NCBI GenBank assembly: GCA_003963305.1
Contig: RXJR01000024.1
Coordinates: 186,001 to 250,000 of the forward strand
Length of the DNA: 64,000 bases
DNA from: Candidatus Melainabacteria bacterium
Lineage (GTDB): Bacteria; Cyanobacteriota; Vampirovibrionia; Obscuribacterales; Obscuribacteraceae
Direction: 5' to 3'
In this document: one piece after another, positions 10,046 through 52,661 of the stretch
Layout of the letters: the number at the start of each line of letters is the position of its first letter
Position numbering within the stretch: position 1 is the stretch's first letter
Position numbers and translations under genes: made by a program
Notes under the pieces: generated by a model
Database searches by the model: none
What the model was told of the DNA's origin: nothing
What the model saw: the letters and a program-made list of their open reading frames with translations, nothing else

Positions 10046-10047
10046 AG

Positions 10048-15533: not shown

Positions 15534-15553
15534 AATCAACCGGTGACCTCTGC

Positions 15554-26090: not shown

Positions 26091-26187
26091 ATTCGGTCCT
26101 CCCCTAAACACGCGACCAATTTCGCGAATAGCGTGATGGTATCACGGTGAATTCGCCTGAATGTACCGGGAATATCCTAGTTTGTCG

Positions 26188-33636: not shown

Positions 33637-35376
33637 TTACTTTGACCGACTGAGCTGGCTGCGCCATTTCGACAACACCGCTCGCTCCAATCCAAAACCG
33701 AAACCACGTTGCTCGATTGTAGAAATAAACTCTTCGGCGCTGTGAATCGGCACTATTTCACCCTTTGGAGGAATAATGATGAAGAGCTTGCTGAAGTCAT
33801 ATGTATTGCAGACAACACCTCGCGATATATCTTTCAACTGGTTGTTCTGAATCTCCATTCGTTCAGACACGACACCACCTTTGATATCACGACTCTTCAG
33901 GGTCAGCTGCAACATAGGCTGAAAGTCCCAAACTCCGTCAAATAGCGGCGCCCACATAACATAGCGGGGGCAGTTAGCAAGAATGATCGAATCACCCGGG
34001 CGGAATCGCCCGGCGTTGGCTTTCAACGAATCCTGAATCACCTTCTGGGTGTACCAGGACAGTATCCAGGGCTGTGCATAGCCTCTGTCGGCGATGAAAC
34101 TGAGGGCCAGCATGGGCAGCAACACAGCCGCAATGACGAGTGCCTGAACTGCACTGCCGGCTTTTGCACCAAGCATCCTCAAAATCAGGGCAATAAAACC
34201 GGCAGTGGCGATGGCGATACCCACCGCGGCGCCTTCATTGATGCGATTTACCAGAGTCTGGAAAGTCGGGAAGTATTCCGGATTCAAACCAAAAATCGTA
34301 TACGAGAGTACGACAGTGATGAGCCCGAGCGGCAGAAGAATGGTCGGCTGATTTTTATCATCAGAGAGTCTCAAAAGCCCCCACATTGCCGCCATCAAGA
34401 CAGCAGCAGCAATCCCGAACGTGGTCCACAGGGTCTTACCGGAGGTGTATTCATAGGCGCGCGCACCGACCTCGGCAAAATACTGCACCGAATACGGTGG
34501 ACAATTGATACGCACACCTTCAACGACTACATTGATAATGTTGCGCAGATCGAAGTGCACCGCATGAACCTGTGCCGGTCCCAGCATCGGCGCAATCACA
34601 CGCGAGTAGATGAGCAGAGGAATGACAGAAAGCGCAAAAGGCAAACTCACCAGCGTCGCTCGCTTGAAAGCTTTGAGTGCATCATCCGAACGAAGGAAAA
34701 CGATATAAGCGAAAAAAGCGTTCAACGATACCAGTGGTAAAAAAGTTTCATAACAAAAAATAGACAGAAGGAAACAGACAACCGACCAGCAGTGATAACT
34801 CAGCTTTCCTTGAATAGCGCCCTTTGTGGTCAAAGCCAGACTGGCCATAGACAGCGCCAGGCTGACATTTTCGGAGCTGCAAGTCGACCAGTAGTGAGTA
34901 ACATCGTGATTCGGATAGGCAATCAAAATCAATCCTGCCACCAGAGATAGTGCAGGCTTGCGGGTAAGATCGCACAAAGCAACGTAGAGCAAAAATGCAG
35001 AAGCTATCTCAAGCGCCGCATTAACAAGGTGATAGCCGATGGGCTTCAAACCAAAAACGAAAAATTCCACGACGTAGAAAAAGGCTTCCACCGGTCGCAC
35101 TATGACACGCGGATCGCTGAGAAGGTATTGATGAAAGGCCGAAAAGAATGACTTAGGTCCCCACTGAATCAGGTTCAGCGTGATCCAGTCATCCAGATAA
35201 AAGCCGACTTTGTTTACAATCGGTCCAAAACAAACAAATTCAAAAGCAATAATCAGAGCCAGAGCGATTAACAAATGCCATCGCTTCATAAAATCGCCGA
35301 GGGTCGTAAGCCCATTCTTTGAGCCACTTTCAGCTGGCTCTGCCGGCGCGTTTTGTTCATCGTTCACAGCCGTCAT
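33637..35376 (-). CDS. GT-C-type membrane protein, probable glycosyltransferase
   Basis: About 579 aa from the ATG at 35376 (a GTG one codon earlier is possible). A hydrophilic N-tail is followed by about 11 membrane helices. The first loop has GFYLDDWITLNL (D63-D64), the acidic pair expected of GT-C enzymes, followed by VRPVEAFFYVVEF and YHLVNAALEIASAF. The C-terminal ~120 residues are soluble. It resembles a smaller version of the protein at 10048 but is alone, divergent from the SGNH-like gene and upstream of cysD. The sugar substrate is unknown; other roles cannot be excluded. Confidence 0.72.
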   Translation of the reverse strand: MTAVNDEQNAPAEPAESGSKNGLTTLGDFMKRWHLLIALALIIAFEFVCFGPIVNKVGFYLDDWITLNLIQWGPKSFFSAFHQYLLSDPRVIVRPVEAFFYVVEFFVFGLKPIGYHLVNAALEIASAFLLYVALCDLTRKPALSLVAGLILIAYPNHDVTHYWSTCSSENVSLALSMASLALTTKGAIQGKLSYHCWSVVCFLLSIFCYETFLPLVSLNAFFAYIVFLRSDDALKAFKRATLVSLPFALSVIPLLIYSRVIAPMLGPAQVHAVHFDLRNIINVVVEGVRINCPPYSVQYFAEVGARAYEYTSGKTLWTTFGIAAAVLMAAMWGLLRLSDDKNQPTILLPLGLITVVLSYTIFGLNPEYFPTFQTLVNRINEGAAVGIAIATAGFIALILRMLGAKAGSAVQALVIAAVLLPMLALSFIADRGYAQPWILSWYTQKVIQDSLKANAGRFRPGDSIILANCPRYVMWAPLFDGVWDFQPMLQLTLKSRDIKGGVVSERMEIQNNQLKDISRGVVCNTYDFSKLFIIIPPKGEIVPIHSAEEFISTIEQRGFGFGLERAVLSKWRSQLSRSK

Positions 35377-35640
35377 CACGGCTCGAATCTAGCAGAAGAG
35401 CGCTTCCGACAACGCCTGTTGTGTATAAAAATTTTGCCACAATAGGATCACTATATCTATGAACCTATTAGTCTATGTCTGAATACCTATCGACCGGGGC
35501 GCACCGTTCTGACCAGAGTTTTCGTCGAGCCGAAAGTTTCGGAAGCTGATACCAATGGTCAGCCTGGCTCACTCAGCCACTCACCAGAGCACGCACAAGC
35601 CACGTCTGCAAAAGTAGCTACGGTAAAAGCGGGACCGGCA

Positions 35641-36849
35641 GTGCCGACCAAAACGAGAGTTCTATCAGCATTCACGCTATCGCTGATGGCATTTGCAGCC
35701 ATCAATGCAGGAATAGCGTACACGCCCTATGCGAAAATAAATCCCGATGTCTCATCTTACCGAGGCTGGAGCTGGTGGACGGTCAACGACATCAGGAGCG
35801 CTTCCAGACCTGCAAATGTTGCACTGCTCGGGTCATCACTGATGGTGGCAGCGATCGCCGAGTGCGATGCAAATTATTTGAAACATTCACTCGACCTGGC
35901 GACCTATCGCGGTGCCAGCTATCTGGACCATACTTTGAGCAACAAATTAGGTGGCTCATTCAACACGATGAATATTTCGGCACCCGGACAGATGCCTTCT
36001 GATGCTTACTTGACCCTGAAAGCTGCGCTCAAGGAGGGCATGAAGCCCTCCATCATCATTTACGGTCTGGCGCCCAGAGACTTTATCGACGGCACAATGC
36101 AAAGCCCGTCCGACACCGAAGCATTCAAGTTCTTGCAGCGTAGCGTCGATATAAGTGACTGCGGTTTGGATTATTACTCATCTCCATTCGGCAAGTTCGA
36201 CTGGTTGCTGCAGCGATCGGTCAATCTCTATCGCATCTCGCAAGACTGTCGCCTGGCACTGGAAAAGTTTTCCCGACAATATCTGACTCACAACGGCATC
36301 TTCAATCTTCCTGAGCAGGAAGGCGCCGCCGGACCATTCGCAACTCGATTGAGAGCCCTGCTCCGCCCCTTCAATATCGAACCAGGGACATTTTTGGCCC
36401 TGCAAACAGTCAACAACCAAACATCAATGATTGACAATCGTCGTGACTACATGGACCGCTACAGAAATCCGGACCAACGCCTTTACAAAACACAGTTCAA
36501 GTTTCTAGAGCGCATCATCGACGTGTGCGACAGGGAAAATATCGAGCTTATTCTCGTGCAAATGCCCATCACTCAAGACAACGTTCAGATTCTCAAGCCG
36601 GCAGACTACGCAAAATATAGAGCCGATTTAAACCAATTCGCTACTGATAAAAAAATCGCGCTGCTTGACCTGTGTAAATTCGAACAATATGACAAGAGCG
36701 ATTATCGAGACACTGTGCACTTGAACGGTTACGGCGGCAAAAAGTTCGTTGACAATCTGGTTTCCGCAATCAGCTCAGATGCCGCCCTTAAAGGCGCTTT
36801 TACGGCAACTGGCGAACGTTATGGCAATTCCGTGAGACTGGCGCAGTAA
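35641..36849 (+). CDS. SGNH-hydrolase-like membrane-anchored protein; N-terminus uncertain
   Basis: 402 aa from GTG 35641. One N-terminal membrane segment (LSAFTLSLMAFAAINAGIAY), then VALLGSSLMVAA (nucleophile-type Gly-x-Ser) and near the end DTVHLNGYGGKKFVDNL (the Asp-x2-His block V). This is the pattern of SGNH/GDSL hydrolases acting on surface glycans (AlgJ/DltD-type). The GTG has no ribosome binding site, and the frame is open upstream to 35446 without an ATG. An ATG at 35475 in another frame would join this frame if one T of the TTTT at 35519-35522 were removed. The real N-terminus may therefore be frameshifted or misread. Confidence 0.72.
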   Translation: MPTKTRVLSAFTLSLMAFAAINAGIAYTPYAKINPDVSSYRGWSWWTVNDIRSASRPANVALLGSSLMVAAIAECDANYLKHSLDLATYRGASYLDHTLSNKLGGSFNTMNISAPGQMPSDAYLTLKAALKEGMKPSIIIYGLAPRDFIDGTMQSPSDTEAFKFLQRSVDISDCGLDYYSSPFGKFDWLLQRSVNLYRISQDCRLALEKFSRQYLTHNGIFNLPEQEGAAGPFATRLRALLRPFNIEPGTFLALQTVNNQTSMIDNRRDYMDRYRNPDQRLYKTQFKFLERIIDVCDRENIELILVQMPITQDNVQILKPADYAKYRADLNQFATDKKIALLDLCKFEQYDKSDYRDTVHLNGYGGKKFVDNLVSAISSDAALKGAFTATGERYGNSVRLAQ

Positions 36850-36972: not shown

Positions 36973-38766
36973 ATGTTTAGCAGTTCAAAGAAGCCACCAC
37001 CAGATCCATCAAAGATAAAGTTGCCAAAGGCTTCCATCGCCCCAAACATGGCCGAATTGCAGGCGATGCACCAGCAAGCCGCCGAAACCGGGCGTGAAGT
37101 CGAACAAATCTGGGCGGAGCCTGATTCGACCAAGTCTTACAGCATGAGCGCCAAGTTCGAAAACGCTGCTCCAAGCCCCACATGGACCTTGTGGGAAGAC
37201 GATGGCATGGAAGGAAGACTGGTCTGGAAATTTGAAACGTCTGATTTCGAGCTGGTCAACGACGTTGTCTGCATGCTCAAGAAGTCGAAACCAGCCACAC
37301 CGGCAAATGAGACTCCAAACGAGCCGCAGCGCCCCCGTGACCCATTTGAAGCAGTCAAACCCCAACCGGTTCAACAAGCACCAGATCCATTCGGCGCACT
37401 AAAACCGCAGCACCAACAAAATCCATACCAGAGCCCTGCCTCTTATCAACCAGGCTACTTTACAAAACCAGAGCCTGTTAAGCCGGAAGCACCGCAGCAG
37501 CCGATGATGCGAAACCCATATCTGGACTCGTCCGCCGATGACTTAGGACCGACAGGGCTACCCATGCCCAAGCCTCTGATGCCTGCGAAACGTGAACCTG
37601 AGGGTGTATACGTCAAGGCAGAGAAGAAGTCCGACACAATCGAAGGCACACTGGCTGAAATGGCTGTTCCTCAGCTTTTACGGAGCCTTGTAACGAACCA
37701 GGCCACAGGCAAACTGGAAATCCTCGGCGAAGAAACAGTCGGCGAAGTATATTTCGAGCACGGCATGCCTAAACATGCCAGCACGCCGTCAGAATATGGC
37801 GACGGTGCCATCAAAGAGCTGGTCACCTGGGAGAAAGGAACATACGTCTTCACTCCGAACTCTCGCACTGATATGCGATCGGTGAATGAGACGCTGGAAA
37901 AGGTGATCACAGAAGGAGTCTTACTGCTCGACCAGAAACGACATCTGAAACGAGCCGGCCTGGCCTACGAATCGTATCTGATTCGCCTGCACAAAAATCT
38001 GAGCGATACAGAGCTGAAACTGATGCTCACCAAAGGCGCTCCTCTCGATTTTGAATTCCAACGTGATGTCTATCACTACTTGAGACACAAGCGCACCTTC
38101 ACAGACCTCTTGCGCGACAAGCCCATGGATAGCACGAAGTGGACGGCGCTGCTTTTCAATTTCCTCTCTTGCGGTTTGATCGAAATCAAACAACCTGACG
38201 CGATCAAGGGTTCTGCTTTAGACTTTTTAGGTGAAGCAAGAGCGCAAGTGCAAGCGATTCACGAATCGTTCATTCGCCCGGAAACAGGCGTTTACTCGTA
38301 TCCAGCCCTGATGTATTTCATGGAGTATGAACTGAACCGCTATGAAGCGTACAACTTTCCGCTCTCATTGATAGTTTTTGAAATCAAAAATCGTCGCGAC
38401 GGCAGTTCTACATCAGACGTACTAACCAGTCAGGCTGCGGGAATTGCAGCGATGAGAATCGATCTGGTAAAACGACCACTCGATATCATCGGACACTTCG
38501 AAGCAGTCGACTACGGTTTGTTATTGCCGAATACCACTGGTTCTTCTGCTGCTTTCGTGGCTAACAGAATATTGGAAAGCTTGACTGCAACTCCGCTGAT
38601 CAAAGGCGTTGACCGTAATTCTCTCGAACTCGCCTTCGGCATAGCCTGCTTACCCGCCGATGGTGATGACATGGAAAGCCTGGTCATGTCTGCCAAAGCT
38701 GCAAAAGCAAAAGCGAAGAGCGGACAGTTCCCGATCGTTCTGTCGCGCAGCAAAAAGAGTAATTGA
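36973..38766 (+). CDS. DUF4388 (PATAN) protein with degenerate GGDEF-like C-terminal domain
   Basis: 597 aa, soluble. Residues about 1-110 are of unknown fold, 110-205 a Pro/Gln-rich linker, and 222-318 a DUF4388/PATAN domain (EGTLAEMAVPQLLRSLV, GEVYFEHGMPKHA). About 434-595 resembles a nucleotide cyclase fold (ETGVYSYPALMYFMEYELNR, IIGHFEAVDYGLLLPNTTG), but the GGDEF signature is replaced by FEAVDYG, so diguanylate cyclase activity is unlikely. PATAN domains occur in two-component and gliding-type regulators. It heads a tight operon with a four-repeat MshEN-like protein and a GT-C enzyme, suggesting regulation of surface glycan assembly or motility. Confidence 0.8.
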   Translation: MFSSSKKPPPDPSKIKLPKASIAPNMAELQAMHQQAAETGREVEQIWAEPDSTKSYSMSAKFENAAPSPTWTLWEDDGMEGRLVWKFETSDFELVNDVVCMLKKSKPATPANETPNEPQRPRDPFEAVKPQPVQQAPDPFGALKPQHQQNPYQSPASYQPGYFTKPEPVKPEAPQQPMMRNPYLDSSADDLGPTGLPMPKPLMPAKREPEGVYVKAEKKSDTIEGTLAEMAVPQLLRSLVTNQATGKLEILGEETVGEVYFEHGMPKHASTPSEYGDGAIKELVTWEKGTYVFTPNSRTDMRSVNETLEKVITEGVLLLDQKRHLKRAGLAYESYLIRLHKNLSDTELKLMLTKGAPLDFEFQRDVYHYLRHKRTFTDLLRDKPMDSTKWTALLFNFLSCGLIEIKQPDAIKGSALDFLGEARAQVQAIHESFIRPETGVYSYPALMYFMEYELNRYEAYNFPLSLIVFEIKNRRDGSSTSDVLTSQAAGIAAMRIDLVKRPLDIIGHFEAVDYGLLLPNTTGSSAAFVANRILESLTATPLIKGVDRNSLELAFGIACLPADGDDMESLVMSAKAAKAKAKSGQFPIVLSRSKKSN

Positions 38767-38768
38767 TT

Positions 38769-39989
38769 ATGTCCGAATCAGCACAGCTAGAACCCGCTGA
38801 ACTCGCACTGCGGCTGGGCGATCTGCTTGTTCGCACGGGAGTAGTGACACCGGAAGCGCTCGAAGATGCAGTCGCCCTGAGCGAAAAGATGCATATCCCA
38901 CTCGAGCGCACGCTGGGCATGAACGGACATCTGAATGCAGATGGAGTGCAGGCAGCAATCACCTTGCAAAACATGCTCGACAGCCAGCAAATCAGCCTGG
39001 ACAGTGCTGTAAAAGTGCTTGAACTGGTTGCATTTCAATCAATGGAGTTCAATACGGCGCTGCGCAAGTTGGCTCCAGGCGTTGAGAAAGCCCAGGGCAA
39101 GCTGACCAGTAAACTCGGCGAAATCATGCGACAAGCTGGAGTCGTAAATCCACGCCACCTTGACGAAGGGCTGCGTCAGAGCCTCAACACAGGGCTGCCT
39201 CTGGGCCTGGTTCTGATCGGTATGGGAGCAATTTCCAACCAGAATCTCCACTCTACTCTTCTGGCTCTTCGCCTCATTCGTGACGAGGTGCTGGATAGAG
39301 AATCTGCGATTCAGGCATTGAGAGTGGCGCGCTTGCAAGAAATCAGTCTCAAGCAAGCACTGGAAGATCAGAAAATTCGCACAATCAAGCTTCAATTCGG
39401 CGTCGGCGAGCTCTTCGTGTTGGCAGGATTCATGACTGAAGGTCAACTTCTTTCAGCGCAAGAACTCGAGCTTGTCGAAGACAGGTCTATTGAACAAGTA
39501 CTTGTGGAGTGCGGCTACGGCACACCGCTTACCATCGAAGCGACGCTGCGCCTTCTCGATATGATCAAAAAAGGAACGCTCTTCGAAGACCAGGCGGCAA
39601 GCATCTTAAAGCGCATCAGAAACGTAAACACGCACGCTGAGATGAATGAGATATTCTCCAATCCTGGCGATTATGACGTTGAATCTCTGAAAACCGACCT
39701 GAATGACTTGCTCTTCATGACCGGTCTCGTTTCAGACGAGGATATTGAAGCAGCTAAGCCGCTAGCCGAGTCGAATAAGGTGCCCCTCGTACAAACGCTG
39801 CAGCAAGTTGGTGCGCTTGACCAGGCAACTGTTACTGCTATGAAAGACTGCAAAGAAGCCCTGGATGCCGGCATTATCTCCAGCGAGCAAGCCGTGATTG
39901 CAGTAGTTTATGCCAATGAGAATAAAACGAGCTTCACCGACACATTGAAAAAGTTCGGCTGGGCACCAACGGTGTTGATGAGCGAATAG
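38769..39989 (+). CDS. Protein of four MshEN/GspE-N-like repeats
   Basis: About 406 aa from the ATG at 38769, two bases after the previous stop. It consists of four ~98-residue units starting near residues 14, 114, 212 and 310. Each opens with a block like LGDLLVRTGVVTPEALEDA (also LGEIMRQAGVVNPRHLDEG, VGELFVLAGFMTEGQLLSA, LNDLLFMTGLVSDEDIEAA) followed by +-x-L-x3-L-x4-G. These blocks match the N-terminal domain of GspE/PilB/MshE ATPases, which in MshE binds cyclic-di-GMP. No ATPase part is present. It is likely a scaffold or nucleotide sensor paired with the upstream DUF4388 protein. Confidence 0.78.
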   Translation: MSESAQLEPAELALRLGDLLVRTGVVTPEALEDAVALSEKMHIPLERTLGMNGHLNADGVQAAITLQNMLDSQQISLDSAVKVLELVAFQSMEFNTALRKLAPGVEKAQGKLTSKLGEIMRQAGVVNPRHLDEGLRQSLNTGLPLGLVLIGMGAISNQNLHSTLLALRLIRDEVLDRESAIQALRVARLQEISLKQALEDQKIRTIKLQFGVGELFVLAGFMTEGQLLSAQELELVEDRSIEQVLVECGYGTPLTIEATLRLLDMIKKGTLFEDQAASILKRIRNVNTHAEMNEIFSNPGDYDVESLKTDLNDLLFMTGLVSDEDIEAAKPLAESNKVPLVQTLQQVGALDQATVTAMKDCKEALDAGIISSEQAVIAVVYANENKTSFTDTLKKFGWAPTVLMSE

Positions 39990-39995
39990 CTGCAA

Positions 39996-42536
39996 GTGAG
40001 ACCGGCTAAAGCGAATCTTGGTTGGCGGGCTTATGGGGCAGTTTTTGTCATCACAATTGCCGTCACGACTCTCTATCATCTGCTCGATGATGGCGTGAAA
40101 GTAGCATTGCTGTTTGACGGCAGGCATTATTTCGAATCGTGCCAGAGAATGACAGGATTGATTCTCGCACTGGTGAGCATGAAAGCGGATCAGGTAGCCG
40201 CGGCAGAACAATCGCTGCGCGAATATATCATGCTCGATGGTCCGGTGCTGCCGACACTGTTTGGCTCAGTCTATGCGCTTCTGGGGCGCATTCCAACCAG
40301 CGCTGACTGGACCCTCATTGTCTGGGTTCAAACTGTACTGCACGCGCTAGCGACTACACTGATCTGCAAGATCACTTTTCAGATGACACGCAAGCATGCT
40401 GTCGCTTTCACTTGCTGCGCGCTCTGGGCTCTGTACCCAGCAGCGCTCGTTGCGTCTGGAAGGCTGATGACAGAAAGCCTGGCGGTGGTTCTTCTGCTTA
40501 GCTTGCCACTGGCTCTGAGAGGAGCTATATCGGCACCGCGCACGGAGGAAAACCAGAGCGCTGACGAATCCACGAAAACGGACGGAAAAGCAGGCGAAGA
40601 AAAAGACGCGTCCTCCTCAAAAGTCACAACTCGGTCGATATTGAGTAAATTTGCCAGTCTAGCAGCCTGCAATCAATTTGGATTTGCGGCAGGCATTGTC
40701 TCAGGGCTTCTAATTCTGCTCAAACCAGGAATGATACCGTCGGTGGCACTATCGTGGCTTGCTTGCCTGGCTATGACGCGCGCCAGACTCGCCGTTGTCG
40801 TTTCACTTCTTCTCGGCGCAGGACTCTCAATCAGTCCCTGGATGCTCTATACAAAGCAGACAACAGGCAAAGCGGCCATAACAGTGCAACGAATGCCCGT
40901 CCATAACGCTCTGATCGGATGGGATCCAGAAACAAGCGGTTGGCAGACAAATCCACCATCAGGCTTCGAGCGTGTGATGAATACCGGAGGCGAGCCGCTT
41001 TCGACAATCGAAGGAATCTGGCTCAGTCATCCGCAAGACTGCATCAACATTCTTTTGGAAAAATTTGGACATCTCTACTCCACACCATGGAACGATTATC
41101 GAGCTAACGTATTCGGAGTCGGAACGCGCCCGCAGGGCTTCTATCATTGCCTCCTGCTCTTTCTGGGGTTGGGCGGAGTGTTTGCCTGGATACTAACGAG
41201 CGAACGCAAGAACAAACTGGCAATCTTATGCATTGCAGCTGCGACAGGGCAATGCGTCTACTTGATGTTTGAGCCAGTTTGCAGATATGCCTTCCCTCAA
41301 ATTGCCTTTGCGCCGGTTCTGTCGGCGTTGTTCCTGGCATTATTGCCCGGAAATTCAAAAAAATGGAAGACCATCGCGCTTGCATCGATATTGTCGGCAG
41401 GCAGCGTAGAGCTTGTTGCCCAGAGCGAAAAACAATCAAGCAAGCGCCTGGAAGAAGTCGCACATGCACTTACCAATAACGAAAAACTCGCTGCCACAAT
41501 CAAATTCAACCCCCAATCATTGCCGGGTTCAACAATTGCCCTTCTGTTGGTGGACGGAGATGCCAATCTAGAGTCCGCACGGGTCGAAGTGAACGGACAC
41601 AAGTGCTTCGGAAATCTAATCGCCTTCAACTACTACGATCCGCAGCGCTACCAGGCATTCAACCTGCTAAAAGAACTGGGTTACGGAATGCATGTCCAGG
41701 TAGACGATTTCAGGATCTGGAGAGCCATTCCTGTTCCTCTTAACGCGATTGAGGACGGCGTCGCCAACATCACAATCACTGCCGGACAGCAGGGTTGCAC
41801 CATATACGGTGACAACCAGGAGTCTCGCAACTATTTGAGCCCCGACTTCCTCTGCGTAAACCGGTTAATCAACTCGAAATCGTCACTGGAGATGCGCAAT
41901 GAAAGTCCGATTCCGGCAGCAAGAACGATGCGGAGCTGGACATTTAGCGATAATCCGCGCATTCACTTACTGCTTGCCAAAGACGCAAACCCAGCGGCAG
42001 AGGAATTAAAATCAAGCACGCCACTCAAGCCATCCAATCTCAATATTGCGCTTTCTCCAGACGACTTCGATGAGAACATGCGAACGCCGACTGGAGAGAT
42101 AAAAATAAGCAGGAGCATTCTCAAGGCAGCCCGATCAACCGGACTGGTGCGCAAGTTGCCCAAGCTCGATAGTGCAGCAAATGTAGAAATCACCCTTGAA
42201 GGAGACATGCACTCAGGTCCCAAGCCGGGCGAGCTAGGCATTGTCATCTCGACAGTGACAGACAAAAATACTGAATGTTTTCTTGCGCGGCTGCCATCAT
42301 CTATTCCGACAAAATCAGACTGGACCCACTTCAAGCTCACAGATATTGCTCCATGCAAAACCAGGCAGGGCGAAGTGAACGCAATCGACATCGCTTTCTT
42401 TCCTGGTCCCTGGCAGCAAATCGCCGGATATGGAGCCGATCGCAAATGCACTGATACGGTGCTGAAAAATCTGCGTCTGGAAGTAAACAGTACCGCACTA
42501 CCGTCCCTGGCCGACAAGCAACTGCTTATTTATTAG
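39996..42536 (+). CDS. ArnT/PMT_2-type GT-C glycosyltransferase, paralogue of the 12720 gene
   Basis: 846 aa from a GTG six bases after the previous stop. The first external loop has LLFDGRHYFESCQRM with the expected catalytic Asp (D41). There are about 11 membrane helices with a long charged cytoplasmic insert (about 180-210), and then soluble domains: ALLLVDGDANLESARVEVNG, RIWRAIPVP and IHLLLAKD. These mirror the 12720 product (YLMIDTDGASSLNSADVIVNG, RQWFLIPVP, IRLLIP). It likely transfers a sugar from a lipid carrier outside the membrane. The stop codon lies in the first unit of a 32-bp tandem repeat. Confidence 0.82.
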   Translation: MRPAKANLGWRAYGAVFVITIAVTTLYHLLDDGVKVALLFDGRHYFESCQRMTGLILALVSMKADQVAAAEQSLREYIMLDGPVLPTLFGSVYALLGRIPTSADWTLIVWVQTVLHALATTLICKITFQMTRKHAVAFTCCALWALYPAALVASGRLMTESLAVVLLLSLPLALRGAISAPRTEENQSADESTKTDGKAGEEKDASSSKVTTRSILSKFASLAACNQFGFAAGIVSGLLILLKPGMIPSVALSWLACLAMTRARLAVVVSLLLGAGLSISPWMLYTKQTTGKAAITVQRMPVHNALIGWDPETSGWQTNPPSGFERVMNTGGEPLSTIEGIWLSHPQDCINILLEKFGHLYSTPWNDYRANVFGVGTRPQGFYHCLLLFLGLGGVFAWILTSERKNKLAILCIAAATGQCVYLMFEPVCRYAFPQIAFAPVLSALFLALLPGNSKKWKTIALASILSAGSVELVAQSEKQSSKRLEEVAHALTNNEKLAATIKFNPQSLPGSTIALLLVDGDANLESARVEVNGHKCFGNLIAFNYYDPQRYQAFNLLKELGYGMHVQVDDFRIWRAIPVPLNAIEDGVANITITAGQQGCTIYGDNQESRNYLSPDFLCVNRLINSKSSLEMRNESPIPAARTMRSWTFSDNPRIHLLLAKDANPAAEELKSSTPLKPSNLNIALSPDDFDENMRTPTGEIKISRSILKAARSTGLVRKLPKLDSAANVEITLEGDMHSGPKPGELGIVISTVTDKNTECFLARLPSSIPTKSDWTHFKLTDIAPCKTRQGEVNAIDIAFFPGPWQQIAGYGADRKCTDTVLKNLRLEVNSTALPSLADKQLLIY

Positions 42537-45284: not shown

Positions 45285-46184
45285 TCAAGTTGATTTCGGT
45301 GCCACTTGTTTGCCACCACGCAGGTGAAAGCTGGCGATTCTGAAATAAGCCAACCCCATCAACCCCAGGTAGGCAGGGGCATCCATATACCAACGCCCAT
45401 TGCGATAGTGTTTTTTCCAGAAGCGATACAGTCCACGATGCGATGACAAAATCATTTTGGCTTTTACTTGCTTGATTGACTGACCGTAATGGTGCACCAC
45501 TTTTGCACTCGGTGTGAACCAGATCTGCCAACCCTTTTGCTTGATGCGATAACACCAATCAACTTCTTCAAAGAGCATCCAGAAGCCCTCATCAAGCGTG
45601 CCGACATCATCGATGACCTCACGCTTGAGCATCAGGCAGGCGCCCTCGGGCTGGTCCACTTCGCGCTCGTCATCATGATTCCAATCAAGCATTTTGTATT
45701 CGCGAAATCGCGGTTGATCTGGAAATATTTTGCTCAATCCCATCAATTCATAGACCATGCCGTTGAAGGTGGGAAAGGCGCGACACGATCTCTGAATCGA
45801 GCCATCAGTATTTATCAGTTGAGGCGCAACAATGCCGGCTTTCGGATGACTGTCGAGAAAGTCCATAAGACACTTGAGTGCACCAGGCTTCACCTCCGTA
45901 TCCGGATTAAGAAGCAAAATCTTTTCACCCTTACAGATATTGATTGCCTGATTGTTCGCTTTAGCAAATCCCAGGTTGTCTGAATTAGCGATGAGATGAA
46001 CCCATGGAAAATCGCTGGACACCATCTGCGCCGAGCCATCCTTGGAGTCATTATCAACGAGGAAAACTTCGGTTTCGCCGGCTAGCAAATTGGAAGGATC
46101 GTCGAGTTCAGCCTTGACCGTCGTCAAAGAAGTGCGCAAGAGTTCTCGCGTGTTCCAGCTGACGATGACGATAGATAGTTTCAT
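45285..46184 (-). CDS. GT2 glycosyltransferase, WbbL/rhamnosyltransferase-like
   Basis: 299 aa GT-A enzyme: LSIVIVSWNTRELL, VFLVDNDSKDGS, NSDNLGFAKANNQAI, LLLNPDTEVKPGAL (metal-binding region) and GTLDEGFWMLFEEVDWCYRIKQKGW (the ED-Y motif of the group). These motifs are typical of dTDP-rhamnosyltransferases such as WbbL. It lies beside the rml genes, across a divergent intergenic region, which fits a rhamnose donor, although other sugars are possible. There is one weakly hydrophobic C-terminal stretch (AYLGLMGLAYFRIASF). Confidence 0.88.
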   Translation of the reverse strand: MKLSIVIVSWNTRELLRTSLTTVKAELDDPSNLLAGETEVFLVDNDSKDGSAQMVSSDFPWVHLIANSDNLGFAKANNQAINICKGEKILLLNPDTEVKPGALKCLMDFLDSHPKAGIVAPQLINTDGSIQRSCRAFPTFNGMVYELMGLSKIFPDQPRFREYKMLDWNHDDEREVDQPEGACLMLKREVIDDVGTLDEGFWMLFEEVDWCYRIKQKGWQIWFTPSAKVVHHYGQSIKQVKAKMILSSHRGLYRFWKKHYRNGRWYMDAPAYLGLMGLAYFRIASFHLRGGKQVAPKST

Positions 46185-46288
46185 TGCTGCATTGCTGCGT
46201 TTTCGGAGTCCAAATCAAACATTTTAGGACAATCAGCAACCTGATGGACTGTGCTGTGAACAAGTACACATAGTTTGTCTTGCGAAAA

Positions 46289-46563
46289 GTGATACCAAAT
46301 GAAAAGTATTAATCACATAGCTTCGCAGCAATTTATTAGAGCGCTCACATGTTTCAAATAGTGTCACCAAGCGAAATTAAAAGTCAAAAGGACCCGATAA
46401 GCACGGCAATCGGCACCGAATAATGCGACCAAACGAAAACAACGCATCGATTAGTTGATAATCACCATACGCCATAAGCTTTTCGTTTAGTCGCACTAAA
46501 AGAAATTGCACCATCAAATCGATATTCATAACGATTCGCCATCCAAGTTTCATTTAGTAGCAT
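46289..46563. promoter_or_regulatory. Five-copy 18-bp motif array in an AT-rich divergent region
   Basis: The 542-bp gap 46185-46726 is AT-rich and noncoding. Five copies of a motif with consensus RTGNNACYAARYGAAA occur: plus orientation at 46289, 46361 and 46423, and minus orientation at 46479-46496 and 46546-46563. The third and fourth copies form an inverted repeat (TGCGACCAAACGAAAA against TTTTCGTTTAGTCGCA, one mismatch). Spacings are about 56-72 bp. They look like binding sites for a regulator of the divergent GT2 and ATPase genes, or iteron-like remnants of a mobile element. Further on, a 17-codon signal-peptide-like frame (46603-46656) ends abruptly. Confidence 0.6.
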
Positions 46564-46726
46564 TAAACAAAACGTAAAACCAGATTTTTCAAATTCGATT
46601 CTATGAAAACTGCTAAAAAATTCGCAGTTGGAGTGGTGACGGTAACAGCTGAGTGACGGCCGACTGCTTAGAAAGCTCGCCCGGTGCTTAATTACAAACT
46701 CTAAGGAATTACCAGACCGACACCAG

Positions 46727-47914
46727 ATGAAACGCTACTTGCGTTTAGTACACCTACATGCAAGACTCGTCCTTATGAAGAATAGAAGTTTTTGGTTCAG
46801 ACAAGTCGAGGAAAGGTGGCAACGAGGCAATGCCATCTGGTTTTCCGGACTACCAGGAACCGGAAAGAGCCTGATTGCACAGAACCTGCCCCAGGTCGAA
46901 TATTTCGACTGCACACTTCCGAGTGTTCGACGAGAACTTGAACACCCCCTGGAATTTTTCGCACGCATAGGCGAGGGGCGTATCGTGCTCGACGAAATTA
47001 CACGGCTCGTCAATCCTCTGGCAATAATTTCGCTAGCCCGCCAGGTGTATCCACAAATCAGGCTCCTCGCAACCAGCTCATCTTCACTGGCGCTCGCCGC
47101 AGTCGGCAAAGATTTGACTGAGGAACGCATTGAAGAACTCTGGCTTACACCCATGGTCAGCAATGATCTTGCGGACTTCCTTCAACACGATCTTCAACAA
47201 CGTTTTCTTCGTGGAGGACTGCCTCCGTTCTTCCTTGCCGAAGGTTTCCCTGAACATGAGTTTCAGCAATGGATGGACGATTTCTGGTTCAACTCAGTGC
47301 AAAACCAATTTCGCCTGGAAAAGAAAACTTCACTGCAAAAATTCGCAGAGATGCTCATGATCAATAGCGGCGACATTTTCGAGGCGACAAGATACGCAGA
47401 ACCATGCGGTGTCAGCCGCACAACGATAACAAACTATCTGGCAGTGTTGGAGAAAACATACTTCGCCAATTTGCTGCGTCCCTTCAACTCGAGACGATCA
47501 ACGGAGATCATCGCAGCACCAAAGGTCTATGGCTTCGACACAGGTTTTATCGCATTCCATCGCGGCTGGAATCAACTGCGCCGATCAGATCTTGGACCAA
47601 TGTGGAAACACTTTGTGCTCAACGAATTGCATGCCAGCCTCCAAACCAGACAGTTCTACTATTGGCGCGATAAACGCAATCACGAAGTTGACTTTATTTT
47701 TGCTCGACGAATTCACACGCCTACTGCCATTGACTGCTCATGGTCCTCTTCTGAATATGATCCCACCGGTCTGCAGGCATTTCGCCGCCAGTATCCGAGC
47801 GGCGAAAACCTGATCGTCTGTCACGATGTGACGCAACCCTTTACTCGCACTTACAAAAAACTGACCGCGAAATTTGTCCCGCTCAATCAGGTTGTGGATG
47901 AATTAGTCTCGTAA
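46727..47914 (+). CDS. AAA_14/DUF4143-type ATPase
   Basis: 395 aa. Walker A SGLPGTGKS, Walker B RIVLDEI, sensor-like LLATSSSSLAL, then LRGGLPPFFLAE. A winged-helix-like part (YAEPCGVSRTTITNYLAVLEKTYF) and the C-terminal nuclease-fold-like block FYYWRDKRNHEVDFIF follow. This is the AAA_14 plus DUF4143 architecture found widely in archaea and bacteria, often of unclear function or in defence and mobile settings. The start is uncertain: neither ATG 46727 nor ATG 46775 has a good ribosome site. It is preceded by the repeat array and followed by glycan genes, with which it has no obvious link. Confidence 0.85.
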   Translation: MKRYLRLVHLHARLVLMKNRSFWFRQVEERWQRGNAIWFSGLPGTGKSLIAQNLPQVEYFDCTLPSVRRELEHPLEFFARIGEGRIVLDEITRLVNPLAIISLARQVYPQIRLLATSSSSLALAAVGKDLTEERIEELWLTPMVSNDLADFLQHDLQQRFLRGGLPPFFLAEGFPEHEFQQWMDDFWFNSVQNQFRLEKKTSLQKFAEMLMINSGDIFEATRYAEPCGVSRTTITNYLAVLEKTYFANLLRPFNSRRSTEIIAAPKVYGFDTGFIAFHRGWNQLRRSDLGPMWKHFVLNELHASLQTRQFYYWRDKRNHEVDFIFARRIHTPTAIDCSWSSSEYDPTGLQAFRRQYPSGENLIVCHDVTQPFTRTYKKLTAKFVPLNQVVDELVS

Positions 47915-48027
47915 TGTGTGAAAACAACTGAGTAACTTACTGAGTAACTTACTGATCAAATTTGACTAAGTTTTGGCACGTCTCTTCGCTGCCACAGTAC
48001 AATCACTCCACACAAACGGAGCCGGTT

Positions 48028-48597
48028 GTGCTGAAAGCTCTTAAACGAATCACTGACGTCGCAATCTCTACCACTGCCCTGGTAGGTCTCGCGCCCGTTC
48101 TGGCAGCGGTAGCTATCGCCATTAAGAGCGATTCAAAGGGTCCGATCATCTTCAAGCAAAAGCGCGTTGGACTGAACGGTGAATTGTTTGAAATTTATAA
48201 GTTTCGCACGATGTTTTACGGCACACCTGACGTGCCGACAGACCAGATGCTGAAAATGCCCAGCCCGATAACCAAAGTCGGTGCGTTCTTGCGCAAAACG
48301 AGCCTGGATGAACTTCCTCAATTGGTTAACGTCCTTAAAGGCGAGATGAGTTTGGTTGGGCCGCGCCCGGCTCTGTATAATCAGACCGAGCTAACGGCGA
48401 TGCGGCAAGAGTCAGGCGTTCTCAAGTTTCCGCCCGGAATTACGGGATGGGCACAAGTCAACGGTCGCGACGAACTGCCCGATGATGTCAAAGTCGAGGC
48501 AGACAAGTGGTACTGCGACCACTGGAACTACTGGCTCGATTGGCAGATTATTTTTTCCACGTTTGGTGCTGTCGTCAGCAAGCGTGGTGCGTTCTAG
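48028..48597 (+). CDS. Initiating polyprenyl-phosphate sugar-1-phosphate transferase
   Basis: 189 aa from a GTG at 48028 with GGAG 6 bp upstream; a TTG at 47962 would add 22 residues. One N-terminal membrane segment (TDVAISTTALVGLAPVLAAVA), then PIIFKQKRVGLNGELFEIYKFRTM, FLRKTSLDELPQLVNVLKGEMSLVGPRP and PGITGWAQVNGRDEL. These are the conserved blocks of the bacterial sugar transferase family (PF02397; WbaP/PglC-type core). It transfers a sugar-1-phosphate to undecaprenyl phosphate to begin a glycan chain. It sits 30 bp before rmlA. Confidence 0.94.
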   Translation: MLKALKRITDVAISTTALVGLAPVLAAVAIAIKSDSKGPIIFKQKRVGLNGELFEIYKFRTMFYGTPDVPTDQMLKMPSPITKVGAFLRKTSLDELPQLVNVLKGEMSLVGPRPALYNQTELTAMRQESGVLKFPPGITGWAQVNGRDELPDDVKVEADKWYCDHWNYWLDWQIIFSTFGAVVSKRGAF

Positions 48598-48627
48598 GTT
48601 CTGACGACTAGAGATACAGGCGGAAAA

Positions 48628-49701
48628 ATGAAGGGACTAATCTTAAGCGGCGGCAAAGGCACTCGCATGCGTCCGATCACGCATACAGCAGCAAAGCAAT
48701 TGCTGCCGGTAGCGAACAAACCGATTCTATTCTATGGAATCGAAGCGTTGATATCCGCAGGCATACGAGAAATTGCCATCATCATCAGCCCTGAAACCGG
48801 CAATGATGTACGCGAATCAGTCGGCAACGGCGATCGCTGGGGCATCAAAATCGAATATGTGCTGCAAGACGAACCGCTCGGGCTCGCTCACGCAGTAAAG
48901 ACTGCCAGACCATTTCTGAAAGACGATCCGTTTGTTATGTATCTGGGTGACAACCTGATCAAAGATGGCGTAGGTCCTCTGGTTAAGCGCTTTGAAGAGG
49001 GAAAAGCCGACGCATTTATCTTGCTCAAAGAAGTCGAAAATCCAAGTTCATTCGGCGTAGCCCAGCTCAACGAAGACGGCAGAATTCTTTGCCTTGAAGA
49101 AAAGCCTGCCAAGCCAAAATCCAATCTGGCCCTGGTCGGAGTCTATCTGTTCAACAAGAATATCCACACCGCAATCGACCAGATCAAACCAAGCAAGCGG
49201 GGCGAGCTGGAAATCACCGACGCCATTCAACAGCTCATCTCTACCGGACACCACGTTGACAGCCACATTCTCAGGAGCTGGTGGCTGGACACAGGGAAGA
49301 AAGACGACATGCTGGAAGCCAACCGCGTTGTGCTCGACGAGATGACAGACGTCTCCATGCTGGGCACCACTGATAGTGCTTCACGAATCTCAGGCAGAGT
49401 ACACGTCGGAAAAGGCAGTCAGCTGAAAAATTGCATCGTGCGCGGCCCGGCCATGATCGGTGAAGACTGCTTCCTGGAAGACAGCTACGTTGGACCGTTC
49501 ACCTCAATCGGCGATGGTGCAAGGGTTTCACATGCTGAAATCGAACACTGCATTTTGCGCGAGCACTGCCAGATCGTCGACTTCCATGGACGTATAGAAG
49601 ATTCTTTGATCGGTGTCAACGTCGAACTTAAACGAAGCAACAGCAAACCAATTGCATTTAGATTAATGATCGGTGATGACAGCAAAGTTGAAGTTGTCTG
49701 A
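48628..49701 (+). CDS. rmlA: Glucose-1-phosphate thymidylyltransferase, long form
   Basis: 357 aa. Nucleotidyltransferase signature LSGGKGTRMRPITHTAAKQLLPV, metal-site YLGDNL, EEKPAKPKSNLALVGVYLF and RSWWLDTGKKDDMLEAN. The C-terminal ~100 residues are left-handed beta-helix repeats (GKGSQLKNCIVRGPAMIGEDC), as in the long RmlA type, about 60 residues longer than enteric RmlA. It makes dTDP-glucose from glucose-1-phosphate and dTTP, the first step to dTDP-rhamnose. rmlB follows after 167 bp. Confidence 0.93.
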   Translation: MKGLILSGGKGTRMRPITHTAAKQLLPVANKPILFYGIEALISAGIREIAIIISPETGNDVRESVGNGDRWGIKIEYVLQDEPLGLAHAVKTARPFLKDDPFVMYLGDNLIKDGVGPLVKRFEEGKADAFILLKEVENPSSFGVAQLNEDGRILCLEEKPAKPKSNLALVGVYLFNKNIHTAIDQIKPSKRGELEITDAIQQLISTGHHVDSHILRSWWLDTGKKDDMLEANRVVLDEMTDVSMLGTTDSASRISGRVHVGKGSQLKNCIVRGPAMIGEDCFLEDSYVGPFTSIGDGARVSHAEIEHCILREHCQIVDFHGRIEDSLIGVNVELKRSNSKPIAFRLMIGDDSKVEVV

Positions 49702-49868
49702 GCGCCAGCCATTCAGTCCTGACAACTTCATTAGACAAGATTCACTGCAGATCGGCTGCACATTATTTCTCTCACGTTGACCACGGCGGGGTTGTCACTG
49801 GACAATTGCTCCTGACGATTGGAAACCTTTGCGGTTGTCAAGTTTTCAGGATTACCGAGGAGAACTAA

Positions 49869-50918
49869 ATGCAATTACTCATCACCGGCGGACTGGGCTT
49901 CATTGGAAGCAATCTGGTGCGCTACTTGTTGAATAATCATCCGGACTACACGATCATCAATCTAGATGCCGTTACCTACGCGGGACATCCAGAGAACTTA
50001 TCAGACGTATCCGACAACCCACGTTATAAGTTCGTCAAAGGAGAGATCCAGGACGCAACCCTCGTCAACGATATCGTCTCAGGCAAACGTTTCGGAAAGA
50101 TTGACGGCATTATCAACCTGGCTGCGGAAAGTCACGTAGATCGGTCGATTTCAGACCCCGCTGTGTTCGTCGAAACCAACGTAATGGGCACACAGGTGCT
50201 TTTGGAAGCAGCTTTCAAACACGGCAAGTTGCCGACCGGCGGATTCCGCATCAAATATGTACAAGTATCGACCGACGAAGTTTATGGATCGCTTGGGCCA
50301 ACCGGACTGTTTACCGAAGAGACTCCGCTTCAGCCAAACAGCCCATACTCAGCCAGCAAGACTGCAGCTGATTTGCTCTGCAGAGCTTACTTCCACACTT
50401 TCAATTTCCCAGCCGTAATCACACGCTGCTCAAACAACTATGGACCATATCAGCATCCAGAAAAATTGATTCCTCTCTTCATCACGAACTGCTTTGCCAA
50501 CAAGCAAGTGCCGGTTTATGGAGACGGACTGAATGTGCGCGATTGGTTGCATGTAGAAGACCACTGCGCGGCAATCGATCTGGCATTCCACAAAGGAGTT
50601 CCAGGCGAGGTGTACAACATCGGTGGAAACAACGAACGCACCAACATGCAGATCACTCAATTGATCTTGAAGGAATGCGGAAAGGGTCCTGAACTCATCA
50701 AGTACGTTGAAGACCGACTTGGACATGACCGCAGATATGCTATCGATTCAAGCAAAATTCAAAGAGAACTGGGCTGGACGCCTAAGCACACCTTTGAAAC
50801 AGGTATCTACCAGACAATTAACTGGTACAAGACAAACACAGCCTGGTTGAACGCCGTGACGAAACCGGAGTTCGCTCCGCCTGTCGTGCCAGCCCCAACC
50901 CCAACGGTTGCGGTTTAG
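49869..50918 (+). CDS. rmlB: dTDP-glucose 4,6-dehydratase
   Basis: 349 aa extended SDR: GGLGFIGSNLVRYL (NAD loop), NLDAVTYAGHPENL, NLAAESHVDRSI, STDEVYG (Thr135-Asp136-Glu137 catalytic triad portion), YSASK (Tyr160, Lys164), RCSNNYGPYQHPEKLIP and VYGDGLNVRDWLHVEDHC. It converts dTDP-glucose to dTDP-4-keto-6-deoxyglucose. GAGGAGA lies just before the ATG. A terminator follows the gene, so rmlD is probably transcribed separately. Confidence 0.96.
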   Translation: MQLLITGGLGFIGSNLVRYLLNNHPDYTIINLDAVTYAGHPENLSDVSDNPRYKFVKGEIQDATLVNDIVSGKRFGKIDGIINLAAESHVDRSISDPAVFVETNVMGTQVLLEAAFKHGKLPTGGFRIKYVQVSTDEVYGSLGPTGLFTEETPLQPNSPYSASKTAADLLCRAYFHTFNFPAVITRCSNNYGPYQHPEKLIPLFITNCFANKQVPVYGDGLNVRDWLHVEDHCAAIDLAFHKGVPGEVYNIGGNNERTNMQITQLILKECGKGPELIKYVEDRLGHDRRYAIDSSKIQRELGWTPKHTFETGIYQTINWYKTNTAWLNAVTKPEFAPPVVPAPTPTVAV

Positions 50919-50949
50919 TTCGCCAGCAAGCTGCTGTAATGGAATCTGG

Positions 50950-50980
50950 AGGTCCGCATCACTAGATGCGGACCTTTGCT
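50950..50980 (+). terminator. Intrinsic terminator after rmlB
   Basis: AGGTCCGCATC (50950-50960) and GATGCGGACCT (50965-50975) form a perfect 11-bp stem with an ACTA loop, followed by TTGCTTTT. It separates rmlB from rmlD. Confidence 0.92.
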
Positions 50981-51083
50981 TTTGAAGTACCTAGAAACTG
51001 CGGGCCTGACTTGCTATCATGGCGTCTGGCTGTGAAGAATCGGTAATGGAGGCGTGGCGCTGCCACGGATCTGAATGGAAACG

Positions 51084-51947
51084 ATGAAACTTTTGGTCAC
51101 CGGCGCTGGTGGCATGTTAGGTCAAGCATTATCTGCGTGTCTTCAGTCACGCGGACACAACGTCATCAGTGTGCCGAAAGAGAAGCTCGACGTCACCAAC
51201 TATAATCAATGCCTCGAAACCATCGAAGATCTCGCGCCTGATCTGATCATTCACTGCGGCGCTTACACAAAAGTAGATCAAGCAGAATCAGAGCCCAATC
51301 TCGCCTATCACATCAACGGATACGGCACAGAGAACTTAGCAGTTGCCTGCAATATTTTCGAAACACCAATGCTCTACTTCAGCTCAGATTACGTATTCGA
51401 CGGCGAGCAAAATCAGCCTTACACTCCCTGGGATGCTACCCGCCCGCTCTCCATCTATGGAAAGAGCAAACTGGCTGGAGAAAAAGCCGTACAGCGTCAC
51501 CTTCAGCGCTTCTACATCGTGCGCACCAGCTGGCTCTACGGTCCAAACGGCAAAAACTTCGTCGACACGATTTCTTCCATGGCAAATGACCGCAAAACCC
51601 TGCGCGTCGTCTCTGACCAGATTGGCTCTCCAACATGCACTTTGAGTCTTTCTGAAACAGTTGCCGATCTGATCACGACAGGCAGATGGGGCGTCTACCA
51701 CGGCACCGATGATGGCGTGACGAGCTGGTACGAATTTGCCAAAGAAATTTTGCGCGATCGCGATAACGAAGTAATTCCGATAGCGACAAGCGAAATGCCG
51801 CGCCCTGCAACACGCCCGAAATATTCAGTGCTCGACAAAACCACCCTGATCAATACAATCGGTCGGGAGTTGCCGCCCTGGCAAGAATCGCTGAAAACTT
51901 ACCTGCAGCTGCATTCCGGACAAAAAGCGGCAGCGACTAGCGGCTAG
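51084..51947 (+). CDS. rmlD: dTDP-4-dehydrorhamnose reductase
   Basis: About 287 aa from ATG 51084; another ATG lies three codons upstream at 51075. NAD(P) loop LVTGAGGMLGQAL, IIHCGAYTKVDQAESEP, YFSSDYVFDGEQNQPYTPWD, YGKSKLAGE (Tyr-x3-Lys) and VRTSWLYGPNGKNFV. It reduces dTDP-4-keto-rhamnose to dTDP-rhamnose. It is separated from rmlB by a terminator and followed by rmlC. A hairpin with arms CGACTAG/CTAGTCG (51934-51950) spans its stop codon. Confidence 0.95.
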   Translation: MKLLVTGAGGMLGQALSACLQSRGHNVISVPKEKLDVTNYNQCLETIEDLAPDLIIHCGAYTKVDQAESEPNLAYHINGYGTENLAVACNIFETPMLYFSSDYVFDGEQNQPYTPWDATRPLSIYGKSKLAGEKAVQRHLQRFYIVRTSWLYGPNGKNFVDTISSMANDRKTLRVVSDQIGSPTCTLSLSETVADLITTGRWGVYHGTDDGVTSWYEFAKEILRDRDNEVIPIATSEMPRPATRPKYSVLDKTTLINTIGRELPPWQESLKTYLQLHSGQKAAATSG

Positions 51948-52106
51948 TCGACCGGAATGAAAACCTTTTGAAAGGTCGTAGCGTTAGAGTAACTACACCT
52001 TCGCAAAGCGGCACAAGTCTGGACTTAAGCGGGTCTTGGCTGGTATTCTTTAGTCTTGTCATATGCTCGATTAGCACAACTTTTCTGAAAAGGCGCTTAA
52101 CTTCTC

Positions 52107-52661
52107 ATGCTCAAACCGTTGACTAAAGACGCTATTGGTGGCGACTACTGCAGTGCACTCTCAGTGCAGGATTACTCGAAGAAGGTCACTATCGAAGGTG
52201 TCCAGCTGATCAACCTCAACATGTTCGTTGATGATGGCGGGGCTTTAGCCGAAATTGTTCGTCTCGACGAACAAGGAAATCTGCTGATTTTGCCCGAATT
52301 CAAAGTACGTCAAAGCACCTACTCACAAATGCTTCCGGGCACAATCAAAGCTTTCCACCTGCACTACAACCAGGAAGATGTGTGGTTTATCATTCCGCAA
52401 GATCGTCTTCTGATCGGCTTGTTTGACGCGAGAAAAGACTCACCGACTTACAACAAGACTATGCGTTTTGTTCTGGGAGCCGGTCGAGCGCAGGCTCTCT
52501 ACATTCCCAGAGGGGTAGCCCACGGTCTGGCGAATGTCGGAACCCAGCCTGCGAACATGATTTACTTCGTCAACCAATGCTTTGACGCCACTAACCCTGA
52601 CGAGCATCGCTTGCCATGGGATATCCTCGGCGAAGATTTCTGGGAAGTCAAAAAAGGCTAA
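52107..52661 (+). CDS. rmlC: dTDP-4-dehydrorhamnose 3,5-epimerase
   Basis: 184 aa cupin-fold enzyme: FKVRQSTYSQMLPGTIKAFHLHYNQEDVW contains the active-site His region, then LYIPRGVAHGLANVG (second His motif) and YFVNQCFDATNPDEHRLPWD. It epimerises C3 and C5 of dTDP-4-keto-6-deoxyglucose. The first ~40 residues (AIGGDYCSALSVQDYSKKVTIEGV) are slightly longer than in enteric RmlC. It is followed after 70 bp by a GT4 gene. With rmlA, rmlB and rmlD it completes the dTDP-L-rhamnose pathway. Confidence 0.92.
   Translation: MLKPLTKDAIGGDYCSALSVQDYSKKVTIEGVQLINLNMFVDDGGALAEIVRLDEQGNLLILPEFKVRQSTYSQMLPGTIKAFHLHYNQEDVWFIIPQDRLLIGLFDARKDSPTYNKTMRFVLGAGRAQALYIPRGVAHGLANVGTQPANMIYFVNQCFDATNPDEHRLPWDILGEDFWEVKKG

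Follow-up and report, generated by a model that had tools for sequence, protein, structure and literature searches.

The stretch of DNA analysed here, hereafter the window, comprises 64,000 nucleotides from a genome of 7.48 Mb in 44 contigs, whose nearest named relatives are Candidatus Melainabacteria and Obscuribacterales MAGs, including Candidatus Obscuribacter phosphatis. Three co-directional ORFs follow one another in the window, separated by 2 bp (counted from the ATG of gene 2 at 38769) and 6 bp, exactly as reported in a first-pass annotation that had read them together as a nucleotide-sensing control unit for surface glycan assembly. That observation is confirmed by the follow-up analysis, and the interpretation placed upon it is supported in part. 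The genes, their domains and the surrounding features are collected in Table 1.

Table 1. Features of the three-gene locus and its surroundings, in window coordinates.
Feature	Position	Strand	Basis
9-TM protein with homologues close to the pair in several relatives	33637..35379	-	TM prediction, locus comparison
Upstream co-directional DUF1574/DltD-like protein	35641..36849	+	Pfam
Gene 1, DUF4388 (PATAN) and degenerate GGDEF protein, 597 aa	36973..38766	+	ORF, Pfam, alignment, model
Gene 1 N-terminal domain, residues 13-102	37009..37278	+	predicted alpha-beta4-alpha, pLDDT about 85
Gene 1 Pro/Gln-rich disordered linker, residues 104-219	37282..37629	+	pLDDT < 50
DUF4388 domain, residues 224-322	37642..37938	+	Pfam PF14332, E 3.2e-12, 47 bits vs cut-off 25
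Degenerate GGDEF domain, about residues 425-590	38245..38742	+	Pfam, profile, model
R501-P-L-D504 (RxxD), five residues ahead of the GGDEF position	38473..38484	+	alignment
GGDEF position, EAVDY in the window, variable among orthologues	38500..38514	+	alignment
Gene 2, four-repeat MshEN-like protein	38769..39989	+	ATG 38769 likely start; ORF open from TTG 38763
MshEN motif repeat 1, RLG..S..PLE..Q, Gln61 kept, Gly40 lost	38811..38969	+	
MshEN motif repeat 2, KLG..S..PLG..L, best conserved, Gln61 lost	39111..39269	+	
MshEN motif repeat 3, contacts lost	39399..39557	+	
MshEN motif repeat 4, contacts lost	39696..39854	+	
Gene 3, ~9-TM protein with soluble C-terminal part, plausible GT-C-type transferase, 846 aa	39996..42536	+	
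Glycan cluster, partly conserved next to the pair in several relatives	45285..52661	.	Pfam, locus comparison
GT2 of the glycan cluster	45285-46184	-	
Bac_transf, NTP_transferase, dehydratase, RmlD, dTDP-sugar isomerase	47962-52661	+	

The N-terminal domain of gene 1 matched no Pfam family; it is found in the orthologues and lies beyond the matched range of most paralogues. Beyond the linker lies DUF4388, which we take to be the PATAN domain, followed by a cyclase fold. The Pfam GGDEF model finds this last part at E 2.5e-4, under its cut-off, profile comparison with 3ign gave E 1.6e-10, and the modelled fold matches solved cyclases with Z of about 16-20. The fold had been described at the outset as one whose GGDEF signature is lost, and this holds, with EAVDY at the signature position and the GG[DE]EF signature present in none of 13 orthologues aligned side by side and none of ten own-genome relatives compared. 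Loss of the signature rules out an active cyclase. RxxD is invariant in all 19 rows of the gene 1 orthologue alignment, and seven of the ten own-genome relatives keep it, with GGDEF kept in 0/10. Its position, exactly five residues ahead of the GGDEF site, is the inhibitory-site (I-site) register of diguanylate cyclases (PleD). The motif alone is no proof of ligand binding because the invariant stretch is wider than RxxD, extending over K-R-P-L-D and a later His (KRPLD..H) both in the 13 orthologues and in the 19-row alignment. Judged by its sequence, gene 1 is a pseudo-cyclase that appears to have lost its active site and kept the I-site RxxD.

Read from its TTG, the gene 2 ORF spans 38763-39989 (408 aa), and the ATG at 38769 lines up with the orthologue starts. 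The NCBIfam model "c-di-GMP_motif, MshE-related" scores 74.8 bits on the protein against a cut-off of 38, with two stretches significant, and is matched by all 21 members of the gene 2 family alignment at E <= 0.001. Pfam MshEN (PF05157) gave no match to gene 2 at E <= 1, and in the whole genome that model finds two places only, both on contig C6. An HMM built for the family places copies at residues 17-69, 117-167, 215-262 and 315-359, with 37, 44, 8 and 10 bits, respectively. The description of the protein as four MshEN-like copies without an ATPase is thereby upheld, as neither Pfam nor NCBIfam detected an ATPase domain and the four repeats fill the 408 aa; nor did Pfam match a GT2 domain. 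In the predicted structure, of modest quality (pLDDT 75, pTM 0.46), a six-helix pattern recurs, with each repeat of ~98 residues apparently consisting of the 53-residue MshE motif, in four helices, and then two further helices. The top match of the repeat 2 model is 5htl, MshE with c-di-GMP (Z 8.1, rmsd 2.6 over 59 residues, 29% identity), a value to be read knowing that helical matches with Z < 13 can be generic; this model also superposes on 8pdk. A Foldseek search of the PDB with the whole gene 2 model returned nothing at E <= 0.001.

Gene 3 carries about nine predicted TM segments within its first ~445 residues. It matched no family in Pfam or NCBIfam, and a profile search of the PDB with it gave no GT-C match. 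One of six relatives matches GT-C_AftD weakly (E 0.059), and profile comparison of the relatives with a PMT_2 protein gave a probability of 0.5 on a 0-100 scale. The proposal that gene 3 is a lipid-linked-sugar transferase of GT-C type is no more than plausible on its topology, with no match in these three databases that would prove it. Gene 3 was also considered as a conserved third partner of genes 1 and 2 and rejected: its sole close orthologue (G002, 65% identity) lies 7.5 kb off the pair, and the best full-length matches elsewhere are about 30% identical. Nineteen loci are informative, namely the window and 19 others except L134, whose contig ends 87 bp on. A large co-directional ORF stands directly 3' of the pair in ten of them, and a convergent gene is next to the pair in six. 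Predicted TM segments number 7-13 in nine of those ten ORFs, and the tenth (L137) runs off its contig after two; Pfam YfhO matches the downstream ORF in five loci, at the C-terminal end only. L131, L140 and L149 have no large membrane ORF directly 3' of the pair, and L140 has a GT-C-like ORF 919 bp on. Since the downstream gene varies among loci, the output may be a varying membrane transferase or another member of the cluster. A separate observation is that a 729-aa EF-hand-like, Pro/Thr-rich protein is encoded directly 3' of gene 3 (window 42777-44966, +), and that an EF-hand-like protein likewise lies 3' of the pair in L146.

Genes 1 and 2 are a true unit, inherited as an adjacent pair. One scan of relatives' contigs yielded 20 loci from named genomes (L063-L075, from largely the same genomes, were not recounted), and in 19 of these related Obscuribacterales loci the two genes are adjacent and co-directional, with spacings of -4 to +77 bp, the exception being L150. 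In a second family of the order, search coordinates put the two genes next to each other in each of three genomes examined. Sister genome G002 holds a natural fusion, a 1065-aa ORF in which PATAN, the GGDEF fold and MshEN matches make up a single protein, as well as a second paralogous pair with a 1-bp overlap. Within the window's own genome, MshEN and PATAN matches, some weak, share a chain in two ORFs of 620-638 aa (L097, L120), and one MshEN gene is divergent to a PATAN-GGDEF gene; outside the pair, only one of nine PATAN-GGDEF paralogues examined adjoins an MshEN gene. At L142 (G034:C201), one of the 19 loci with the pair, gene 1 is split over two frames beside an intact gene 2, reflecting either assembly error or decay. 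Of 53 genomes of the order, 24 have a full-length gene 1 orthologue with E below 1e-150, a few of these copies being partial or split. A clear score gap sets them apart from the paralogues, with the next match at 3e-129, and the resulting distribution is patchy, which is what a surface locus might be expected to show. A correlation of 0.91 between gene 1 and gene 2 distances (171 pairs) was set aside as proof of coupling, as it only mirrors shared descent; the counts of syntenic loci are likewise not independent, since these loci have a common ancestry with the window.

Besides glycosyltransferases, the cluster in the window contains a sugar-phosphate transferase, a nucleotidyltransferase and genes of dTDP-rhamnose type. 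When 19 chosen glycan-cluster proteins of the window, several assigned by topology only, were used as queries, homologues were found at 13 of 19 orthologue loci (mean 11.4 kb) versus two of 40 own-genome MshEN or PATAN paralogue regions (mean 12.6 kb), with a Fisher p of 5e-7 that overstates independence because the orthologue loci share descent with the window. Better evidence of a glycan link comes from L146-L148, where the pair sits amid other, differing glycan genes of GT1 and GT2 type, joined in L148 by ABC-2 export and O-antigen ligase genes. Acyl_transf_3 and MBOAT proteins are further neighbours of the pair, and Pfam, applied to one neighbour each of ten own-genome MshEN paralogues, found no glycan family.

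As the dead cyclase and the MshEN array are inherited together inside glycan clusters, they probably regulate the building of the surface coat. On the balance of evidence, we give roughly even chances to genes 1 and 2, the latter a soluble array with no enzyme attached, forming one control pair for the assembly of surface glycan that lacks catalytic activity and probably responds to c-di-GMP. Of the control unit first proposed, genes 1 and 2 are well supported, as a conserved pair with a natural fusion and a place in varied glycan clusters, and the three-gene arrangement, which is unconserved, is not. In such a pair, c-di-GMP would be made by some of the 13 GGDEF matches in the genome with an intact signature, and would bind the best-kept MshEN repeat, namely repeat 2 in most orthologues and repeat 1 in one clade, and possibly also the RxxD of gene 1. 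Ligand binding would change the contact between the PATAN/GGDEF protein and the MshEN array, and the changed contact would tune either a glycosyltransferase in the membrane or an export step within the pair's cluster, in the window perhaps gene 3. The lost cyclase signature, the kept RxxD, two ligand-like repeats out of four, the adjacency, the fusion and the glycan surroundings are observed; that the two proteins interact physically, that c-di-GMP binds, and which output is controlled in which direction are what we infer.

How far the array could still sense the nucleotide depends on its contact residues. MshE contacts c-di-GMP through R9, L10, G11, Q32, L39, G40 and Q61, according to the accessible text of the 2016 structural report (PMC5013675), and the equivalents were counted in 20 orthologue rows, that is, the 21 family members less L150, which has no adjoining gene 1. 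Repeat 2 has R/K9, L10, G11, L39, G40, G47, L54 and L58 in all 20 rows and Q61 in 15, and repeat 1 has G11 and Q61 in all 20 and G40 in 18; repeats 3 and 4 have neither G40 nor Q61 in any of the 20. An equivalent of the motif-I Gln32 is found in none of the 20 orthologues, Ser, Ala, Gly, Val or Cys taking its place in repeats 1 and 2, and is likewise missing from all 18 motifs of full length (53 matched codons) among 30 loci of this genome. Mean entropy at contact and other positions, respectively, is 0.48 and 1.32 in repeat 2, 0.82 and 1.20 in repeat 1, 1.05 and 1.33 in repeat 3, and 0.99 and 1.21 in repeat 4, a contrast in which some contact positions are also structural and repeats 3 and 4 provide an internal control.

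These residues bear most directly on the strongest alternative, which we regard as possible though doubtful: that the pair is a glycan-cluster scaffold no longer sensing c-di-GMP, with the array a helical-hairpin solenoid that serves protein contacts only and RxxD retained because it belongs to an interface. It would account for the loss of Gln32 throughout, the full degeneracy of repeats 3 and 4, and the breadth of the invariant KRPLD..H stretch relative to RxxD, and the nearest PDB match of the gene 2 model by Foldseek is a designed alpha/alpha toroid. In the window, alone among the 20, repeat 1 lacks Gly40 and repeat 2 lacks Gln61, leaving neither with both, and in PilF the loss of both Gln residues abolished binding, as far as the available text reports (PMC11731258). 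Against a mere scaffold stand the strong selection on the repeat 2 contact positions, the Gln61 retained in repeat 1 (20/20) and repeat 2 (15/20), and the co-occurrence of G40 and Q61 in at least one repeat in 19 of the 20 rows, the window copy being the sole exception. The published accounts of PilF run both ways: GSPII-B, which has Lys at position 1 and Leu at position 30, binds c-di-GMP, and changing its motif-I Gln to Glu leaves it binding at 950 nM (PMC11731258), and the rescue of GSPII-A required Gln at both positions together with Arg at position 30 (PMC12002112). The notion that Pro in place of R38 alone precludes binding was discarded, given that, in the published PilF data, GSPII-B has Leu there and GSPII-C Pro, and both bind. 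These data fit either outcome, and we therefore expect c-di-GMP to be bound by most gene 2 orthologues and weakly or not at all by the copy in the window. The nucleotide sensing first suggested for the locus is accordingly left plausible by the contacts kept in repeats 1 and 2, most of them in repeat 2 and never in repeats 3 and 4, and weakened by the missing motif-I Gln in 20/20 rows and by a window copy whose set of sites is the weakest of the 20. Repeats stripped of nucleotide contacts together with an absence of co-occurring genes, the combination named beforehand as telling against a sensing unit, is as a whole not what was found.

An action of the pair on type IV pili instead of glycan, with the free MshEN array competing for or carrying PATAN regulators, appears unlikely. 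Its appeal comes from cyanobacteria, where, in the accessible parts of the reports, PATAN regulators act on PilB1, PATAN-REC proteins binding it in Synechocystis, and the cyanobacterial PilB bears an MshEN domain (PMC9090330, PMC7690835), as well as from the two own-genome ORFs that unite PATAN and MshEN (L097, L120); against it, the orthologue neighbourhoods are glycan loci, and no pilus gene is present among the genes typed there. The last alternative, that the pair is a passenger of unrelated function sharing a chromosomal address with glycan genes by descent only, is improbable too, since, although the orthologue loci are syntenic over long stretches, such that the association may count as one event, and the same-genus G001 has no full-length gene 1 orthologue, the pair lies amid different glycan genes in L146-L148 and paralogues of both genes lie near glycan homologues in only two of 40 regions.

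The control pair is best read as a variant of MshEN-controlled glycan synthesis as seen in NfrB. According to the text available, NfrB of E. coli is a glycosyltransferase whose MshEN domain binds c-di-GMP and which works with the cyclase DgcJ (PMC8669469). Both systems tie MshEN to surface-glycan synthesis and to a GGDEF protein, and the NCBIfam NfrB model matches 19 of 21 gene 2 family members and PRK15489 all 21, the window match falling on the MshEN part. NfrB is a c-di-GMP-activated GT2 with C-terminal MshEN, locally fed by DgcJ, whereas here the MshEN is a free four-repeat protein to which no glycosyltransferase is joined, its partner combines PATAN with a dead cyclase fold, and the adjoining putative transferase is GT-C/YfhO-like and varying, not GT2. 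With the GSPII domains of MshE, PilB and PilF (V. cholerae, T. thermophilus), gene 2 shares the 53-residue tandem motif and, as in PilF, several repeats per chain; it differs in having no ATPase and no Gln32 equivalent, and in its ~98-residue repeats, which in the model end in a helical pair, not MshEN_C.

Two pilus systems offer further parallels. The PATAN-REC proteins PixE and LsiR, acting on PilB1, are likewise PATAN proteins working through an MshEN-bearing partner, if the interaction supposed here exists; there a REC receiver addresses a pilus motor, whereas here a pseudo-GGDEF protein would address an enzyme-less MshEN array in a glycan locus. In the FimX-PilZ-PilB system of X. citri, the c-di-GMP receptor, which has GGDEF and EAL domains, is reported to pass its signal to an N-domain resembling MshEN (PMC8389850). 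Unlike FimX, gene 1 has no EAL, and no PilZ adaptor is seen at the locus. A literature search covering titles and the starts of abstracts, with subscription papers mostly outside it, brought up no description recognised as a PATAN-GGDEF/MshEN pair.

MshEN has been known chiefly as a regulator built into ATPases and, in the one case of NfrB, into a glycosyltransferase. A free-standing MshEN array that is inherited with a PATAN pseudo-cyclase, is fused to it in one instance and occurs in different glycan loci offers a testable case of c-di-GMP adaptors detached from enzymes. If true, it would be a first concrete signalling-to-surface link in these non-photosynthetic sister lineages of cyanobacteria, which are uncultured, and the contact between PATAN and PilB in cyanobacteria would then look like one instance of a broader PATAN-MshEN interface.

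The most interesting by-product of the analysis is the expansion of MshEN in the order. The NCBIfam MshE-type motif has 11-86 matches per genome across 38 relatives and the window's own genome, and 0-3 per genome in 21 genomes from other orders of the class. In the own genome, 73 matches, some weak, fall in 36 frames, some of which are fused to long C-terminal parts (L103, 957 aa; L111, 1885 aa; L117, 1181 aa). The maximum given in the accessible text of the 2016 MshE paper is 22 genes per genome, in Myxococcus xanthus (PMC5013675). The window's own genome has one PilZ and two EAL matches alongside 37 GGDEF matches, 13 with intact GG[DE]EF and 24 without the strict signature, so that many other cyclase folds may be receptors. 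A broader and more speculative proposal, to which we lend limited credence, is that a catalysis-free two-protein c-di-GMP relay, made of an I-site pseudo-cyclase and a free MshEN array, gates GT-C/YfhO-type membrane transferases in Obscuribacterales, and that it is one member of a large, lineage-specific MshEN adaptor family acting, via PATAN-MshEN contacts, as the order's main c-di-GMP effector system.

The wider window holds several other features. Three consecutive large membrane ORFs of 519, 891 and 939 aa, with 8-11 TM segments and no match in Pfam, occupy 8486-15539 (-) and are possibly transferases. A 1428-aa bacterial alpha-2-macroglobulin is encoded within the glycan cluster at 21825-26111 (-). 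Sulfate-activation genes, comprising a GTPase-APS kinase fusion and a PAPS-reductase-type protein, lie beside glycan genes at 29236-33432 (-), an arrangement suggesting, from gene content, that the surface glycan may be sulfated; their homologues occur at the same place in G002 (L063).
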